IMG/VR virus record: IMGVR_UViG_3300047550_005039
Location: 1 to 31,275 of that record
DNA from: a virus
Strand: one strand, 5' to 3'
Length of the DNA stretch: 31,275 nucleotides
Made by a program: the position numbers and the translations under genes. Every line of letters starts with the position of its first letter. The first letter of the stretch is position 1. Below, one piece after another: positions 1,789-29,565 of the stretch. The notes beneath the pieces are model-generated. The model had not been told where the DNA came from. It ran no database searches and was given only the letters and a program-made list of their open reading frames with translations.

Positions 1789-2928
1789 TTATTTTATTAG
1801 TGACTTATACCATTCAGCCCTTGTTTTAGTTACGATTCTCAAATCGTAGGTATCCTTGACTGTTTCGTATAATCTTTCACCCAAATCTACGACAAAATTT
1901 CGATTATTGCTCAATTTTTTTATAAATTTACCCCAATCACTATGATTTCTATTTTCATCAACCAATAAAGCGTTTCCATCAGTAAATTCACCATTCTTCA
2001 AAGCATGTTTTAAATCTAAAGTATAAGGACCGATATTCGATGCAATCAATGCTTTCTTATAAAAACCCGCTTCGATAACCTTAAGTTGTGATTTCATTCG
2101 ATTGAACATGTGGTTCTTAATCGGTGCAATAGATACGTCAAACTTAGAATAGTTTTTCGCATACATCTGAACTGGTCTTGTCCATACCCTTACATATGGT
2201 TGGTCATACATATTTGGATAATCTTCTTCTTTGAATTTTTGAAGATGTTTAATATAATCTTCAGACATTCCTTGATAGTTAGATGTAATAATTTTTTCAT
2301 ATGTACTCCAAACCGTTTCTTCAGGTTTAATTGGTCTTTGACTTTGTTCACCTGTTTCTTGATTTATTTGAGTAACCATACCTCTTGTATCAAAACCGCA
2401 AAGATAGAACTGTAAATTCTTTCTATCGTCATCATTTAATTTGCTTAATGAACTTTCAATTAACATTAAATCATGAAGATGTGAAGAACCACCTAACCAA
2501 CCAACTCTCAATCTATCACTTGGTAATGTAGGTTCACTAAATTGTGGTTCAGTAGGGTCAATTGCATTAGGTATTACAACTACATTTTTATTAAACTTAG
2601 ATATTTCATCGGCAAATAACTTTGTTGTGGTTATAACATACTCAGCCGATTTAAGGTTGTTAACTATCTTTTCATTTATCTTATGTGTCTTGATAAGATG
2701 ATGAATAGGGTGCTCTGTACCAGGCATCCAATAGTCGTCTATATCAACAATAGTGACAATACCTTGACCTCTTAACCATTTAAGAATGTCAGGTGTTTGT
2801 TCATATGTTTGACCAATATTTCTATGGATATGAACAATTTGATATTTTTTCCAATAATCTGGGTTTTGGAATTTTGGTTCGTAATCGATTTCAACGTGGA
2901 AGTCCTCAGGATAAAGTTTTTGTAACAT
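1789..2928 (-). CDS. GT4-like glycosyltransferase, main (3') part of an interrupted gene
   Basis: Read from ATG 2926-2928 this gives 379 residues. Features of GT-B glycosyltransferases (group 1/GT4-like) include IVHIHRN, VDIDDYW, a central VVVIPNAID linker, LRVGWLGGSS at the start of the second Rossmann domain, and a C-terminal part with LKVIEAGFYKKALIASNIGP, the E-A-G donor-binding region. Hence it should transfer a sugar from a nucleotide-sugar. This ATG is probably not the natural start. Same-frame coding continues upstream as KYRSVDPHV and, beyond a 45-nt stop-containing block, as an opening NVLVLPSDKTGVG that supplies the missing first beta strand and glycine loop. The natural gene would begin at 3084 and encode about 416 residues if the block is skipped. 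Without recoding, the product lacks the N-terminal strand. Confidence 0.85.
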   Translation of the reverse strand: MLQKLYPEDFHVEIDYEPKFQNPDYWKKYQIVHIHRNIGQTYEQTPDILKWLRGQGIVTIVDIDDYWMPGTEHPIHHLIKTHKINEKIVNNLKSAEYVITTTKLFADEISKFNKNVVVIPNAIDPTEPQFSEPTLPSDRLRVGWLGGSSHLHDLMLIESSLSKLNDDDRKNLQFYLCGFDTRGMVTQINQETGEQSQRPIKPEETVWSTYEKIITSNYQGMSEDYIKHLQKFKEEDYPNMYDQPYVRVWTRPVQMYAKNYSKFDVSIAPIKNHMFNRMKSQLKVIEAGFYKKALIASNIGPYTLDLKHALKNGEFTDGNALLVDENRNHSDWGKFIKKLSNNRNFVVDLGERLYETVKDTYDLRIVTKTRAEWYKSLIK

Positions 2929-2955
2929 TACGTGAGGGTCTACTGACCTATATTT

Positions 2956-3009
2956 ACCTTTTAATTTTCCCCCACCCTCTTACGAAAGTGGGGGTTCCGC
3001 ACCAACCCC
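2956..3009 (-). promoter_or_regulatory. Hairpin block with the stop codon in a GNRA loop, between two GGT codons; bypass or recoding candidate
   Basis: In the mRNA sense, arms 2984-2994 and 2969-2979 pair over 11 bp (nine Watson-Crick pairs, two G-U) and close on a GUAA tetraloop at 2980-2983. The in-frame UAA stop is the last three bases of that loop. A GGT codon lies 6 nt before the stem (3001-3003), and another GGT lies 10 nt after it (2956-2958), preceded by A-rich sequence. Skipping from the first GGT to the second removes 45 nt including the landing codon and joins TGVG to KYRS. A competing 6-bp hairpin, GGGGTT/AACCCC, pairs 3004-3009 with 2991-2996. The layout recalls T4 gene 60 bypassing (matched Gly codons, stop and hairpin between). 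The function is inferred. Confidence 0.5.
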
Positions 3010-3084
3010 TGTCTTATCTGATGGGAGAACCAACACATTGATTTTCTCACCAGACTTAGGAGTCGGATTAATCTGATTTGACAT
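2980..3084 (-). CDS. 5' fragment of the GT4-like glycosyltransferase gene, ending at an in-frame TAA
   Basis: A 34-codon frame from ATG 3082-3084 to TAA 2980-2982, in the same frame as the main glycosyltransferase ORF. Its residues 17-28 (NVLVLPSDKTGVG) look like the first beta strand and glycine-rich loop of a GT-B enzyme. The open frame resumes after the stop and runs into KYRSVDPHV and the 379-residue body. Residues 29-34 (AEPPLS) and the codons just after the stop come from the hairpin block and look foreign to the fold. It is therefore the true 5' end of the gene rather than a separate peptide. It could also be read as a broken gene. Confidence 0.6.
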   Translation of the reverse strand: MSNQINPTPKSGEKINVLVLPSDKTGVGAEPPLS

Positions 3085-3195
3085 ATTTTATTATATTTAA
3101 TTTATTATTTTGATGTAATTAGATGTGTTTTCAAATTACTTTCAAAGTATAACCCAAAGTTTTAATTAAATCAATTTCAATCTAAAATTTTTTAA

Positions 3196-3221
3196 ATAAA
3201 AAACCCCTCATAGAAGAGGGG
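3196..3221 (-). terminator. Rho-independent terminator of the 6037-3249 operon
   Basis: On the minus strand CCCCTC and GAGGGG (3216-3221 with 3204-3209) form a 6-bp stem with a 6-nt loop, followed at once by a run of T residues. It lies 28 nt past the stop of the last gene of the operon, and separates that operon from the glycosyltransferase-dUTPase run. Confidence 0.8.
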
Positions 3222-3248
3222 AAGGGGATAATAGGATATATAATTATG

Positions 3249-8030: not shown

Positions 8031-9299
8031 ATGAAAATATTCATTCAAATAGCTTCTTATCGAGACCCACAATTAATACCAACAATTGAGGATGCGATTA
8101 ATCAGGCAAAAAATCCAAAAAATTTAGTGTTTGCGATTGCTCGTCAGTTCCATCCTGATGATAAATTTGATGACTTATCTAAATATGAAAACGATAAACG
8201 TTTCAGAATTTTAAATATACCACATGAGGAATCACAAGGTGTTTGTTGGGCTAGACATTTAACACAACAACTTTATGAAAATGAAGAATATACACTTCAA
8301 ATAGATTCTCACATGAGATTTGAAAAAGATTGGGACAAAACTTTAATCGATATGATTAAAGGATTGAAAAAGAAAGGATATAAAAAACCTTTATTAACAG
8401 GTTATGTATCTTCTTTTGACCCCGATAATGACCCATCCGCTAGAGTTAGGACTCCTTGGAGAATGGCCTTTGATAGATTCATTCCTGAAGGCGCCGTTTT
8501 CTTTTTACCTGAATCAATACCTGGTTGGGAAAAATTAACAGAACCCGTTCCTGCAAGATTTTATTCAGCTCACTTTTGTTTTACGTTAGGTTCTTTTGCG
8601 AAAGAAGTTCAACATGACCCTGAATACTATTTTCACGGTGAAGAAATATCGATAGCGGTAAGAGCGTACACACATGGTTATGATTTATTTCATCCGCACA
8701 AAGTCGTAATTTGGCATGAGTACACAAGGAAAGGTAGAACCAAACAATGGGATGATGACAAAACATGGGGTGAGAAGAACAAAAAATCCCATCTAAAAAA
8801 TAGAAAGTTGTTTGGAATGGATGGTGAAATATACAATGAGGAGGAGTTTGGTCAATTCGGTTTTGGTAAAGTAAGAAGTTTACGTGATTATGAAAAATAT
8901 GCGGGTTTATTATTTTCGAAACGAGCCGTTCAACAATACACTTTAGATAAAAAATACCCACCAAATCCCTATGATTACGCAACAGAAGAAGAATGGATAA
9001 ATAGTTTTGCCAAAATTTATAAACATTGTATCGATATAAGTTTCGATAGTGTTCCTCTTGATGATTATGAATTTTGGGTGGTTGCTTTTCACGGACCTAA
9101 TGATGAGACATTATTTAGAAAAGACGCAGATAAAAATGAAATAATGAGATTAAAAACAGACCCAGACAGATTCTGTAGGATTTGGAGAGATTTCTTAACA
9201 TCCGAAACACCATCATATTGGGTTGTTTGGCCTTACTCAGAATCTAAGGGTTGGTGTGATAGAATAACAGGACAATTAAACCACAATCATGTTAGTTAA
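8031..9299 (+). CDS. GT60-like N-acetylglucosaminyltransferase-type glycosyltransferase
   Basis: A 422-residue protein opening with IFIQIASYRDPQLIPTIEDA, the signature start of the GlcNAc-transferase family that includes Skp1 glycosyltransferases (PF11397, GT60). The metal-binding DSH triplet (residues 92-94, in QIDSHMRF) replaces the usual DxD, as is normal in this family. Further matches are HEESQGVCWARH and the late acceptor-side segment FYSAHFCFTLGSF with EEISIAVRAYTHGYDLF. Family members move GlcNAc from UDP-GlcNAc onto hydroxyproline or other hydroxyls. The last ~120 residues are an extension of unclear role. It is the first gene of a five-gene glycan cassette. Confidence 0.85.
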   Translation: MKIFIQIASYRDPQLIPTIEDAINQAKNPKNLVFAIARQFHPDDKFDDLSKYENDKRFRILNIPHEESQGVCWARHLTQQLYENEEYTLQIDSHMRFEKDWDKTLIDMIKGLKKKGYKKPLLTGYVSSFDPDNDPSARVRTPWRMAFDRFIPEGAVFFLPESIPGWEKLTEPVPARFYSAHFCFTLGSFAKEVQHDPEYYFHGEEISIAVRAYTHGYDLFHPHKVVIWHEYTRKGRTKQWDDDKTWGEKNKKSHLKNRKLFGMDGEIYNEEEFGQFGFGKVRSLRDYEKYAGLLFSKRAVQQYTLDKKYPPNPYDYATEEEWINSFAKIYKHCIDISFDSVPLDDYEFWVVAFHGPNDETLFRKDADKNEIMRLKTDPDRFCRIWRDFLTSETPSYWVVWPYSESKGWCDRITGQLNHNHVS

Positions 9300-11465: not shown

Positions 11466-13130
11466 ATGAGATATACTTTAGTAACTGGTTTATGGGATAT
11501 TGGGAGACATTCTTTAAGTGACGGATGGTCAAGAAGCTATGAACACTATTTAAATAAATTTTCTCAATTATTATCTGTCGATTGTAATTTGATTATTTTT
11601 GGTGATGAGTCATTAAAAGAATTTGTGTTTTCTATACGTAAGGAAGAAAATACTCAGTTTATTGTTAGAAATATTGATTGGTTTAAGAATAATGAATATT
11701 TTAACACAATTCAAAAAATAAGAACAAACCCAAATTGGTTATCGTTGGCAGGGTGGTTAAAAGAATCTACCCAAGCAAAATTGGAATTATATAATCCCTT
11801 GGTGATGAGTAAGGTTTTCCTTTTACATGATGCAAAAATTTTAGATAAATTTAATTCTGAAAATTTGTATTGGATTGATGCAGGATTATGTAACACTGTT
11901 CACGTTGGTTATTTCACTCATGATAAAGTTTTAGATAAAATACCATCATTGTTTACCAAATTTAGTTTTATTTGTTTTCCTTACGAGGCCAATACTGAAA
12001 TACATGGATTTGAGATTAACCATATGAATAAAATGGTTGGAAATAAGATTAATAAAGTTGCAAGAGGAGGTTTCTTTGGAGGTCCTAAAGAAACAATTTC
12101 CGAAGTCAATACGATTTATTATAACTTACTTATCGATACTTTGAACGATGGTTATATGGGTACGGAAGAGTCGTTATTTACAATAATGATTTATAAATTT
12201 CCAACTCTTTTTAATTATTTTGATATTGAGGGAAATGGATTAATATCTAAATTTTTTGAAGATTTAAAAACAGAAAAAGTTGAGGTTAAGTCAGAGAAAA
12301 AAATAACATTCTCATCAAATATCAATAAAACATCGTTGTATGTTATTTCATTTAATAGTCCGAAACAATTTGAAACTTTAATCAAGTCGATGGAAGAATA
12401 TGATGAAAATTTCTTGACTCAACCTAAAAAATATTTATTAGATAATTCTACCGATTTAACAACAACTGAAAGATATAAAGAACTGTGTGAACTATATGAA
12501 TTTGAACACATCAAGAAAGATAATTTGGGAATATGCGGTGGACGACAATTCATAGCGGAACATTTTGAGGAAACTGATTCTGATTTTATGTTTTTCTTCG
12601 AAGATGATATGTTCTTTTATTTGAAAAAGGGGGAATTATGTAAAAATGGGTTTCCAAGATACATTGATAACCTATACAATAAATCTTTAAAAATTATGAA
12701 TAATCATGGATTTGATTATTTAAAATTAAATTTTACAGAATTTTTTGGTGATAACTCTACCCAGTGGTCGTGGTATAATGTTCCGCAAAATATAAGACAA
12801 GAGTTTTTCCCTGAAAAACCAAATTTACCGTTCAAAGGATTAGACCCAAGTGCTCCGAAAACTAACTTCAAAAACATACTATCTTATAATGGTGTCTCAT
12901 TTGCAACAGGTGAATGTTACTACTGTAACTGGCCTCAAATTGTTTCTAAACATGGGAATAAAAAAATGTTTTTAGACACAAAATGGGCTTCCCCCCATGA
13001 ACAAACATGGATGTCACATATGTTTCAAATGAGTAAACGAGGTGAATTTAATCCTGCGATATTATTGTTAACACCAACAGAACACAACCGTTTCGAATTT
13101 TATGATGGTAAATTAAGAAAAGAATCATAA
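11466..13130 (+). CDS. Two-domain protein: YibB/HtrL-like N-half fused to GT-A glycosyltransferase C-half
   Basis: A 554-residue protein. Residues 1-265 match the HtrL/YibB pattern: YTLVTGLWDIGRHS at the start, YWIDAGL (W136, D138), ARGGFFGGPKE, and GTEESLF. After a Lys/Glu linker (about 268-282), residues about 285-554 form a GT2-like GT-A domain: TSLYVISFNSPKQFETLI, KYLLDNST, NLGICGGRQFIAEHF and FMFFFEDDMFF with E379-D380-D381 as the metal-binding acidic cluster. The C-terminal part is Trp-rich and ends in EQTWMSHMFQMSK. A two-step glycan enzyme is likely. It sits 1 nt after the smaller YibB-like paralog and closes the cassette. Confidence 0.65.
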   Translation: MRYTLVTGLWDIGRHSLSDGWSRSYEHYLNKFSQLLSVDCNLIIFGDESLKEFVFSIRKEENTQFIVRNIDWFKNNEYFNTIQKIRTNPNWLSLAGWLKESTQAKLELYNPLVMSKVFLLHDAKILDKFNSENLYWIDAGLCNTVHVGYFTHDKVLDKIPSLFTKFSFICFPYEANTEIHGFEINHMNKMVGNKINKVARGGFFGGPKETISEVNTIYYNLLIDTLNDGYMGTEESLFTIMIYKFPTLFNYFDIEGNGLISKFFEDLKTEKVEVKSEKKITFSSNINKTSLYVISFNSPKQFETLIKSMEEYDENFLTQPKKYLLDNSTDLTTTERYKELCELYEFEHIKKDNLGICGGRQFIAEHFEETDSDFMFFFEDDMFFYLKKGELCKNGFPRYIDNLYNKSLKIMNNHGFDYLKLNFTEFFGDNSTQWSWYNVPQNIRQEFFPEKPNLPFKGLDPSAPKTNFKNILSYNGVSFATGECYYCNWPQIVSKHGNKKMFLDTKWASPHEQTWMSHMFQMSKRGEFNPAILLLTPTEHNRFEFYDGKLRKES

Positions 13131-26226: not shown

Positions 26227-29200
26227 ATGGCAACAAACAGCAAAGTATTCGTGTCACCTGGTGTGTACACATCTGAAAGAGATTTAAGCTTTGTAACTCA
26301 AAGTGTTGGTGTTACGACTTTAGGTATAGTTGGTGAGGCTTTAAAAGGTCCAGCTTTCGAACCTATTTTTATTAGTAATTACAGCGAGTTCGAAACTTAT
26401 TTCGGTGGAACAAACCCTGAAAAATTTATAAACACACAAATTCCAAAATATGAAGCATCATATATAGCGAAGGCGTATTTGCAACAATCCAACCAAATGT
26501 TCATGACAAGAATATTAGGTTTATCGGGTTATGATGCGGGTCCTTCTTGGTCTATTCAAACAATTGCAAATGTGGATTCTACAACAGTGGGATTCCAAAA
26601 AGATTGTACGAGTATACCTGATTACATGTCACAAACATGTACATTAAGTTGTACTGGTAGAACTGTAACAATCAGTGTAGATTTCTCTGGTTGTACAAAT
26701 CAAGATGGTAGTATATCTTACTTAACATCTTTCCCTGCGGAAATTGATTGTTTACTTACAACACCATATACAAAATTTAATGGTGGTACCTCATCTTTAA
26801 AGAGTGATATTAATTCTCAATTGTTATCAGTATTTGCAAACAATAGTTTGTCAGGTACTTCAATCAATTATTGGGGTAGCATTCCAACTGACGATTATAA
26901 CATTTTAAGTACAACATTTACAGGTGAAACTAACGTATTCGGTGTTCCGAATGTTTCGGCTGATTACACTGATTACACATCACCGTATAACGACCCTTGG
27001 TATTATGCGTTGTTTGATAACTTTAGTGGTAACAGTTACTCAGGATATTCATTCTGGACTGTAGTAAGTAACTTAGTATTGTTACCTACAACAGCAACAA
27101 CTACTACTACAACATCAACTTCAACTACTACGACAACAGTTAATCCTTGTTCAACTACAACAACAACTGTACCTTCAACAACAACTACAACTACTGTTAC
27201 AAACTGTTTCTCAGGAACTGTAACAGGTGTTATATACTTGTATTCTGGTGATAGTTATTCTAACTATAATAACTTAGTAGTAGGTACATTGAGGTCAAGA
27301 GGTTTATCAACTTATAGTTCAACAGAACACGGACCTAATTATGAAGTAGACCAACTTAGTGCTGTGACTTTGGATTTCTCTGGTACTTATTCAGCGGTAA
27401 CTAAGAATCCTTTCTCAACATTTGGTGTTAATGTTACTAATAAAAATGGTAAAACATTTGCTTTCAAAACATCACTTCAATCTTCAGATGCTACTTATGC
27501 ACCTAAAGTATTCGGTGTAAGTAACTTCTCAAAACCAAGAACTGAAACACCTTTATTTATGGAAGAAACTTTCCAAAGTATGTTAAACTGGGCATACAAG
27601 AAAGGATATATCAGAGGTTTGAGACAAGAATTAATCGCATTACCAAGTGCAAGAAGTAACGATAGTTCAAGTATCGGTTTCTATTTAGAAAGATACCAAG
27701 CACCAGAAAGTCCTTGGGTTGTTTCTGAATTAAGAGGTACAAGTGTTTACAGACTCTTTAAATTCATATCAATAGCTGATGGTAACAGTGCTAATGACCA
27801 AATAAAAATCTCTATGATTAATATGTCATTCTCTAACCAAACATTTGATGTGTTAGTAAGAGATTTCTATGATACTGATGATTCACCTGTGGTTTTAGAG
27901 AAATTCACAAACTGTTCAATGGACCCAGGTCAGAATAACTTTATCGCTAAGAAAATAGGTTCTTCTAATGGTGAGTTTGCTTTAAACTCGACTTACATAA
28001 TGGTTGAGATGAATGAAGACGCTCCAGTGGATGCGTTACCTTGTGGTTTCGAGGGTTATACTTTCAGAAACTATGATGGTGTTAATTCTCCATTCCCTAT
28101 CTACAAAACTAAGTATGACTATCCAGGTGAAGTTGTATACGACCCACCATTTGGTTATACAACAGGTGCTGATAATCCTACAGTAAGTGCAGGTGATAAT
28201 GTAAGAAGAACTTACTTAGGTATCTCAAGTAGTGTTGGATATGATTTAGATTTCTTCCAATATGTAGGTAAACAAAATACAAACACAACATGTGACCCTG
28301 TTCCTCAAGAATGGTCTTACATGTCTAAAGGTTTCCACATGGACTCAGGTGCGACAGTAGTTACAATTCCTGATGTATATTCTACTTCAGGTAAGACAAT
28401 GTTCGCAGTAGGTGTGGCTGATTTCAGAAATGACCCTGATAGTCAAGAAAACCCTTACTACAGATTATATGCGAGAAAATTCTCGTTGTTAGTTCACGGT
28501 GGTTTCGATGGTTGGGACATTTATAGAGAGTACAGAACAAACTCAGATAGATTCCAAACTGGTTCAAGTGGTTTCTTAGAAGGTGCTTGTGTTTCAGATA
28601 GATATCCAAACGCATCAGGTGCTGGTATGTTCAGAAGAATCACAATAGGAGACAACACTCAAGATTGGTCAAATACTGACTACTACGCTTACTTGTTAGG
28701 TCAACAAACGTTCTCTAACCCTGAAGCTGTGAACATCAACGTGTTTGTAACACCAGGTATTGATTATGTAAATAACAGTAACCTTGTTGAAGACGCAATC
28801 GAAATGATTGAGTATAACAGAGCTGACTCTCTTTACGTATGTACAACTCCTGACTATAACATGTTTGTACCTTCTACAACAAACTCAGCGGATTTAATTT
28901 ATCCACAAGAAGCTGTAGATAATTTGGCAAACACTGGTATAGATTCAAACTATACAGCTACTTACTATCCTTGGGTATTAACAAGAGATACCGTTAACAA
29001 CACTCAATTGTATATTCCAGCAACAGCTGAAGTTACAAGAAACTTGGCGTTGACAGATAATATCGCTTTCCCTTGGTTCGCATCAGCGGGTTACACAAGA
29101 GGTATAGTAAACTCAATAAAAGCTAGAAAGAAACTCACTCAAGAAGACAGAGATACTTTATACGTTGGTAGAATAAACCCTATCGCTACTTTCTCTGACG

Positions 29201-29565
29201 TAGGTACAGTAATTTGGGGTAATAAAACTCTTCAAATTGCAGAGTCTGCTCTTGATAGAATCAATGTAAGAAGATTACTTTTACAAGCTCGTAAATTAAT
29301 ATCTGCGGTGGCTGTAAGGTTATTATTCGAACAGAATGATGCTAAAGTGAGACAAGATTTCTTAGATGCGGTTAACCCTATCTTAGATGCTATAAGAAGA
29401 GACAGAGGTCTTTACGATTTCCGTGTAACAGTTTCTTCTTCAGCTGAAGACTTAGATAAAAACCAATTAGTAGGTAAGATTTACATCAAACCAACTAAAG
29501 CATTAGAATTCATAGATATCGAATTCTTGATTACACCAACAGGTGCATCATTTGAGAATATCTAA
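26227..29565 (+). CDS. Contractile tail sheath protein (T4 gp18-like), enlarged
   Basis: An 1112-residue protein. The N-terminus is typical of sheaths (VFVSPGVYTSERDLSFVTQS, then VGVTTLGIVGEALKGPAFEP and a YFGG segment). The C-terminus has the conserved core: ARKKLTQEDRDTLY, INPIATFSDVGTVIWGNKTL, DRINVRRLLLQARKLISAV, NDAKVRQDFLDAVNPILDAI and a final strand FIDIEFLITPTG. Sheath subunits polymerise round the tube and contract to drive it into the cell. It is much longer than T4 gp18 (659). The extra mass is in the middle and includes a Thr-rich stretch at about 288-325 bounded by Cys near 311 and 327. Such insertions are expected on the outer surface of the sheath. A terminator follows. Confidence 0.93.
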   Translation: MATNSKVFVSPGVYTSERDLSFVTQSVGVTTLGIVGEALKGPAFEPIFISNYSEFETYFGGTNPEKFINTQIPKYEASYIAKAYLQQSNQMFMTRILGLSGYDAGPSWSIQTIANVDSTTVGFQKDCTSIPDYMSQTCTLSCTGRTVTISVDFSGCTNQDGSISYLTSFPAEIDCLLTTPYTKFNGGTSSLKSDINSQLLSVFANNSLSGTSINYWGSIPTDDYNILSTTFTGETNVFGVPNVSADYTDYTSPYNDPWYYALFDNFSGNSYSGYSFWTVVSNLVLLPTTATTTTTTSTSTTTTTVNPCSTTTTTVPSTTTTTTVTNCFSGTVTGVIYLYSGDSYSNYNNLVVGTLRSRGLSTYSSTEHGPNYEVDQLSAVTLDFSGTYSAVTKNPFSTFGVNVTNKNGKTFAFKTSLQSSDATYAPKVFGVSNFSKPRTETPLFMEETFQSMLNWAYKKGYIRGLRQELIALPSARSNDSSSIGFYLERYQAPESPWVVSELRGTSVYRLFKFISIADGNSANDQIKISMINMSFSNQTFDVLVRDFYDTDDSPVVLEKFTNCSMDPGQNNFIAKKIGSSNGEFALNSTYIMVEMNEDAPVDALPCGFEGYTFRNYDGVNSPFPIYKTKYDYPGEVVYDPPFGYTTGADNPTVSAGDNVRRTYLGISSSVGYDLDFFQYVGKQNTNTTCDPVPQEWSYMSKGFHMDSGATVVTIPDVYSTSGKTMFAVGVADFRNDPDSQENPYYRLYARKFSLLVHGGFDGWDIYREYRTNSDRFQTGSSGFLEGACVSDRYPNASGAGMFRRITIGDNTQDWSNTDYYAYLLGQQTFSNPEAVNINVFVTPGIDYVNNSNLVEDAIEMIEYNRADSLYVCTTPDYNMFVPSTTNSADLIYPQEAVDNLANTGIDSNYTATYYPWVLTRDTVNNTQLYIPATAEVTRNLALTDNIAFPWFASAGYTRGIVNSIKARKKLTQEDRDTLYVGRINPIATFSDVGTVIWGNKTLQIAESALDRINVRRLLLQARKLISAVAVRLLFEQNDAKVRQDFLDAVNPILDAIRRDRGLYDFRVTVSSSAEDLDKNQLVGKIYIKPTKALEFIDIEFLITPTGASFENI
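27086..27207 (+). repeat. ACN-rich low-complexity run encoding a poly-Thr segment
   Basis: The run is mostly ACA and ACT codons with occasional Ser, Val and Pro, and Cys codons at intervals. The mixed synonymous Thr codons argue for selection on the protein rather than pure DNA slippage. Confidence 0.85.

Follow-up and report, generated by a model that had tools for sequence, protein, structure and literature searches.

Candidate stop-hop elements at one junction of a glycosyltransferase gene in environmental phages

Knowledge of translational bypassing in bacteria and phages had rested essentially on gene 60 of phage T4, which has a 50-nt gap with mobA nearby and is the nearest known case to the one described here. 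Bypassing in gene 60 was described as unique among T4-like phages, and the gene adjoins mobA (PMC3014915); the gap may have served as protection from the homing endonuclease encoded next to it (PMC5009743). Synthetic stop-hops in Escherichia coli have matched codons placed around a stop codon, so that nine bases yield one amino acid, and according to a 2016 review no natural occurrence of in-frame stop-hopping was known (PMC5009743). The mitochondria of Magnusiomyces capitatus contain many short, translationally skipped inserts in which take-off and landing codons are often alike (PMC5009743). A literature search that had subscription papers mostly outside its reach returned no report of the family of elements considered below.

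The window analyzed here is a 31,275-nt stretch of viral DNA (IMG/VR record IMGVR_UViG_3300047550_005039) in which a glycosyltransferase gene is split by a 45-nt block. We consider it probable that this block is a long, derived member of a translational bypass family that occupies a fixed junction of the gene; for the family itself, the sequence evidence makes bypass very probable. As in T4 gene 60, take-off and landing codons are matched Gly codons (in the window and in the family), the stop codon directly follows take-off (in the family, not in the window), a hairpin encloses take-off and stop (in the class with 6-nt gaps and TGA), the protein has an N-terminal leader peptide, a predicted homing endonuclease gene usually adjoins, and relatives of the phage gene are uninterrupted (PMC5009743, PMC3014915, PMC11194080). 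Unlike in T4, another gene and another type of endonuclease are concerned, the elements are found in many lineages rather than one, the gaps are shorter than the 50 nt of T4, at 5-13 nt or, in the window, 45 nt, and are both in-frame and frame-changing, Ser codons are used as well as Gly codons, and the leader sequence is unrelated to KKYK. Members of the GGY-TRA-GGN class have exactly the layout of the synthetic E. coli stop-hops, from which the family differs in being natural, repeatedly evolved and equipped with extra conserved signals. The M. capitatus elements, similar in being short and numerous, are scattered over many mitochondrial genes, whereas the family is confined to a single junction in one phage gene family and is accompanied by a stop codon, a leader and an endonuclease.

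The interrupted gene in the window

The features of the locus, in window coordinates, are:

1789..3084, minus: glycosyltransferase gene, GT-B (GT4-like), interrupted by the block; the homologue model matches GT-B/GT4 enzymes in the PDB
3001..3084, minus: first reading frame, 28 codons, with leader MSNQINPTPKSGEKINVLVLPSDKTGVG; this extension is missing in the nearest homologues, L002 and L003
3001..3003, minus: proposed take-off codon GGU, at the position that take-off occupies in the family alignment
2956..3000, minus: 45-nt insert (non-coding gap) with the landing codon at its end; missing from homologues
2980..2982, minus: in-frame UAA in the GUAA loop, from the sequence
2969..2994, minus: 11-bp hairpin with GUAA tetraloop, from folding
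2991..3009, minus: alternative hairpin of 6 bp, GGGGUU/AACCCC, whose loop contains the take-off codon, from the sequence
2956..2958, minus: proposed landing codon GGU, from the sequence and the family alignment
1789..2955, minus: resumed frame, 388 codons from KYRSVDPH; under purifying selection relative to L003
3098..3178, minus: likely decayed C-terminal remnant of a homing endonuclease gene, from tblastn and shuffles

An earlier note on this DNA had described an in-frame 45-nt block splitting a GT4-like gene, flanking GGU codons, a GUAA-capped stem and a second, competing hairpin, all of which were confirmed. The block, at 2956-3000 on the minus strand (gene 3084..1789), follows the take-off GGT (3003-3001), contains a single in-frame stop, TAA at 2982-2980, and has as its last codon the second GGT (2958-2956); the coding sequence continues with AAA TAT AGG TCA (K Y R S). 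The segment CCCCCACUUUC (2994-2984) pairs with GAGGGUGGGGG (2979-2969) over 11 bp, including two G-U pairs, and GUAA (2983-2980) caps the stem, so that the only stop lies in the loop; the opposite strand pairs less well. GGGGUU (3009-3004) and AACCCC (2996-2991) could form the competing stem. Folding of the 91-nt region gave a minimum free energy of -27.9 kcal/mol, a value reached by 3 of 200 shuffles (z -2.46), and for the block alone a folding energy as low was reached in 2 of 5000 shuffles. The homologue alignment proposed in the same note also bore out its expectation, since homologues run GVG-KFRS or GVG-KYRS without the block, and the nearest ones, L002 and L003 (74-76%), have neither insert nor leader, their N-termini being MSKIN.. 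and MAKIN... The window leader, 28 residues long, resembles that of L121 (MNQESNPTPDVRKKIRVLCVPSDRTGVG); ahead of the gap the window carries GGGGTTGGT, and GGT is its landing codon.

In other respects the window stands apart. Take-off is followed by GCG, and a stop comes only as the seventh codon, whereas elsewhere the stop directly follows take-off; the stop in a GNRA loop, which the earlier note had emphasised, is present and peculiar to this record. The hairpin is strong but lies within the gap, and the 45-nt block is known from a single record. Neither the exact hairpin, for which the earlier note had proposed a search of related phage genomes, nor a long-gap pattern (20-50 nt) was found in other viral contigs. 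A search of the genome collection gave two matches, L247 and L248, of which L247 lies in an ordinary non-phage gene and was rejected as a family member.

Upstream of the gene, the translation of 3178-3098 (EIDLIKTLGYTLKVI*KH..) aligns with the sequence KIDLIRNFGYNLEVIWES.. of the endonuclease described below. The tblastn score is 23.9 bits (1 of 1000 shuffles scored as high, and none in the C-terminal part), whereas a profile HMM alone gave no significant match; this segment is likely a decayed endonuclease C-terminus. The chief rival reading of the window is that the whole allele has decayed and is non-functional, being either an ancestral short stop-hop into which a hairpin was inserted or a gene on its way to losing function. 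The apparent decay of the endonuclease, the uniqueness of the gap and the displacement of the stop from the take-off codon favour such decay, as would the end of the block (GGT..TAAAAGGT AAA), which resembles an 8-nt element with 37 nt added. On the other hand, the 388 downstream codons are open and have a dN/dS of ~0.09 relative to L003, the leader and the matched GGU codons are retained, and the length of the block is still a multiple of 3. We regard decay as unlikely, albeit well ahead of every other alternative, and lean towards bypass in the window's own 45-nt allele, less firmly than for the family because no other gap is as long and because the stop comes as late as the seventh codon after take-off. 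A gap of this size would be feasible, since T4 ribosomes slide efficiently across gaps of up to ~56 nt (PMC11194080). By its leader, matched codons and apparent remnant, the window looks like a derived, long family member with a decayed endonuclease.

A terminator-like stem (CCCCTC..GAGGGG, followed by a T run) occupies 3195-3226 on the minus strand, between the upstream gene and the glycosyltransferase gene. Elsewhere the window encodes a second glycosyltransferase (Pfam GlcNAc; 8031-9299), an HtrL_YibB-type protein (11466-13130) and a large tail-sheath protein (26227-29565); the phage is contractile-tailed and carries sugar-modifying genes.

Inserts at a single junction in related phages

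Eighty relatives of the gene were collected from viral contigs, and nearly all of them read (S/T)GVG-K(F/Y)RS without an insert. At precisely this junction, two lineages, L009 and L018/L019/L063, read GGT-TGA-GGT or GGC-TGA-GGT. A pattern with a free inserted codon, GGNGTNGGN-NNN-GGNAARTTYMGNTC, matched 25 loci of the glycosyltransferase gene, and the inserted codon was a stop in all 25 and a sense codon in none; three further matches (L096, L100 and L101) are unrelated genes and do not belong to the family. Additional loci were sought with an alignment of the endonuclease and two more patterns. After removal of identical alleles, the set comprised 51 alleles with an insert (23 distinct element sequences) and 77 without, the window being kept separate. 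All these sequences are metagenomic, and the counts given here refer to alleles and not to independent events, except where the tree was used. In GenBank phages, only remote homologues of the glycosyltransferase (<=34% identity among the matches listed) and partial matches to the endonuclease were found.

Counted to the end of the landing codon, the gaps measure 6 nt in 31 alleles, 11 nt in five, 5 and 8 nt in four each, 7, 12 and 13 nt in two each, and 9 nt in one. Short examples are GGT-TA-GGT, AGC-TG-AGC, GGC-TGA-GGT, AGC-TGAA-AGC, AGC-TGACA-AGC and AGC-TGACTA-AGC; longer ones are GGT-TAACTAAA-GGT, GGT-TAACAAAAC-GGT and GGC-TGAATTTAAA-GGA. A stop directly follows the take-off codon in 51 of 51 alleles (TGA in 25, TAA in 24, TAG in 2); one search pattern demanded T-R-N at this position, and the other searches, which did not, gave the same result. 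On the tree, the insert was gained or lost at least 13 times. In four loci (L149, L152, L169 and L178) the resumed frame extends over ~770 codons, twice the usual length.

The homologue model has a GT-B fold near that of GT4 enzymes, among them GlgM, MshA and BshA, and places the junction in the loop after beta strand 1, so that a protein restarted downstream would be without that strand. This bears on the possibility that ribosomes terminate and restart, making a short leader peptide first and the main protein from a start of its own. Some alleles, including that of the window, do have an ATG 9 codons past the junction; however, the first possible start (ATG, GTG or TTG) comes only 213 codons after the junction in L135 and 165 codons after it in L098, and the stretch ahead of it is under the same purifying selection as the rest (dN/dS ~0.1 downstream of the junction, including relatives with 7-, 8- and 9-nt gaps). 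With restart also leaving the codon matching and the exact return of ancestral length and frame unexplained, and with the first half encoding beta strand 1 of the N-terminal domain, we hold it to be improbable.

Still less probable is decoding of the stop itself, by readthrough, a suppressor tRNA or a recoded stop codon. The length of the gap is a multiple of 3 in 34 of the 51 alleles, and in the window, as readthrough would have it, but the gaps of the remaining 17 alter the frame, which excludes readthrough. In the related loci L169, L178 and L149, gaps of 8, 7 and 9 nt give frame offsets that differ between alleles, and the ~770 downstream codons are conserved (dN ~0.15-0.19, dS >1.2). Moreover, all three stop codons (TGA, TAA and TAG) are used at the site and each also ends other long ORFs in the same loci, no tRNA gene was found in the 12 loci scanned, and the matching of codons would have no explanation.

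This matching concerns the first two bases of the take-off and landing codons, which are GG/GG in 42 alleles, AG/AG in 8, AG/GG in 1 and GG/AG in 0 (p 1e-8, a value overstated by a Fisher test that treats related sequences as independent); on the tree, only three independent pairs test the switch from Gly to Ser, with agreement in 2.7 of 3 on average. Among the 23 distinct elements, the first two bases match in 22 and the entire codon in 15. The codons of a pair switch jointly from Gly (GGN) to Ser (AGY), which is what a peptidyl-tRNA hop predicts, although the matching could partly reflect the origin of the insert through copying of the target codon. Two elements deviate: in that of L164 and L214 (AGT-TAA-GGC), re-pairing of AGU with GGC would need a first-position G-U pair, and in that of L198 (AGC-TGATA-AGA) the landing codon AGA differs from the take-off codon AGC. 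These are natural tests of how exact re-pairing must be.

Removal of the gap from the RNA, by splicing, editing or polymerase slippage, is brought to mind by the group I intron origin suggested for the T4 gene 60 gap (PMC5009743). Yet no known intron is as short as 5-13 nt, the matching tracks codon positions, with third bases that are wobble-equivalent, and not longer repeats, and an Rfam search of the window stretch and six loci found nothing meaningful; we give this explanation very little credence. Sequencing or assembly error, which the single record of the window block might suggest, is just as implausible given that identical insert alleles of the family recur in several independent metagenomes (e.g., L018/L019/L063 and L121/L122/L123).

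Leader, hairpin and endonuclease neighbour

The inserts come as parts of a cassette whose other components are a leader peptide and a predicted homing endonuclease gene, a finding that goes beyond the earlier note. An N-terminal leader with the pattern P-x-N-G-R-E-K-I-R... precedes the junction in 50 of 50 readable insert alleles versus 3 of 77 without an insert, and take-off is mostly at codon 28. Whereas the Fisher test for this association treats related sequences as independent, the tree supports it in ~12 of 13 independent pairs (p 0.0005). Among alleles that have the endonuclease and no insert, the leader is missing in 14 of 15; thus, it goes with the insert and not with the endonuclease. 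We infer that the leader may act on the ribosome as a nascent-peptide signal. Two alleles without an insert, L226 and L204, nevertheless possess an N-terminal extension, with GGGGT ahead of the junction, and may be former insert alleles from which the gap was precisely lost.

Among the insert alleles, 40 use GGG as the first Gly codon, compared with 9 of the 77 without an insert, and this usage creates a conserved GGGG two bases ahead of take-off. In alleles of the 6-nt TGA class the GGGG takes part in a stem of as many as 12 bp (GGGGUUGGCUGA paired with UCAGUYGACCCC), which contains the take-off and stop codons and leaves the landing codon in the loop. Its mean z against synonymous shuffles is -5.05 (-0.5 for alleles without an insert); the class comprises 12 distinct sequences, in which most pairs vary little. 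The other gap classes have such a stem weakly or not at all, and conservation of the hairpin is evident in the 6-nt TGA class alone.

An ORF of ~300 aa that is missing from most homologues precedes the gene in L009 and L018. It has a NUMOD3 motif, and the best PDB matches to the predicted fold of its catalytic domain are I-Bth0305I (3r3p; TM 0.75 on target, probability 1.00, Foldseek E-value only 4e-3) and Vsr; a match to Pfam REase_MTES_1575 is below the cut-off. In its predicted catalytic domain and motif the ORF resembles EDxHD homing endonucleases such as I-Bth0305I; unlike the latter, the gene is free-standing and not in an intron, and cleavage by its product is putative. Among loci with enough upstream sequence, 39 of 50 insert alleles and 15 of 75 without an insert have the endonuclease or a fragment of it upstream. 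The way in which loci were sought accounts for part of this association, which does not reach significance on the tree. One locus counted as endonuclease-free, L222, has a 12-residue upstream match to the same C-terminal part of the endonuclease, likely a remnant. Relatives of the endonuclease also occur without this glycosyltransferase gene downstream (L166, L167, L184-L188).

An intact GTN-GGY-AAR junction is present in none of the 15 endonuclease-bearing alleles without an insert, compared with 43 of the 58 others without one (L004 and L007, which have other upstream sequence, were left out). Instead, the endonuclease-bearing alleles have GGA or GGG, K-to-R, V-to-C or TCG changes at the junction. 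Such substitutions, as if conferring resistance, are seen in L142, L145, L147, L154, L158, L159, L168, L174 and others. The distribution fits a junction that is the target of the endonuclease and is protected either by the insert or by substitutions.

Proposed mechanism and its implications

The hop is proposed to take place where GVG meets K/Y-F-R-S, directly following the first beta strand. A ribosome would translate the leader of ~28 codons and stall with peptidyl-tRNA-Gly (or -Ser) on the take-off codon, with the stop codon in the A site and, in one class, within the hairpin. The anticodon would then release, the mRNA would advance by 5-13 nt (45 nt in the window), and the anticodon would re-pair with the matching codon, so that translation would resume at the next codon and the product would be the ancestral protein with no extra residues. 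As to origin, a stand-alone EDxHD-type homing endonuclease gene directly upstream may target the junction, its carriers being protected either by point substitutions or by an insert over which ribosomes can pass. The window appears to have lost the endonuclease, and its gap to have grown to 45 nt. The T4 gene 60-like bypass between matched codons put forward in the earlier note is strongly supported for the family, and it is from the family that we infer it for the window allele.

The family seems to be the first natural stop-hop family, usually beside a homing endonuclease gene. Its 23 distinct elements, with their frame-changing gaps and co-varying codon pairs, are nature's own mutagenesis series, permitting tests of what gap length, stop codon, hairpin, leader and tRNA identity each contribute to hop efficiency, and of whether bypass elements arise as protection against homing endonucleases. 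Genes of this kind are split at the false stop by automatic gene callers. We consider it fairly likely that environmental phages have been invaded by a mobile cassette that combines an EDxHD endonuclease gene with a leader peptide and a stop-hop, its inserts of varied length shielding its own target and being neutralised by hopping of peptidyl-tRNAs for Gly and Ser over gaps of 5 to 45 nt. If this is true, T4 gene 60 would be one instance of a general way to render endonuclease-resistant targets harmless.
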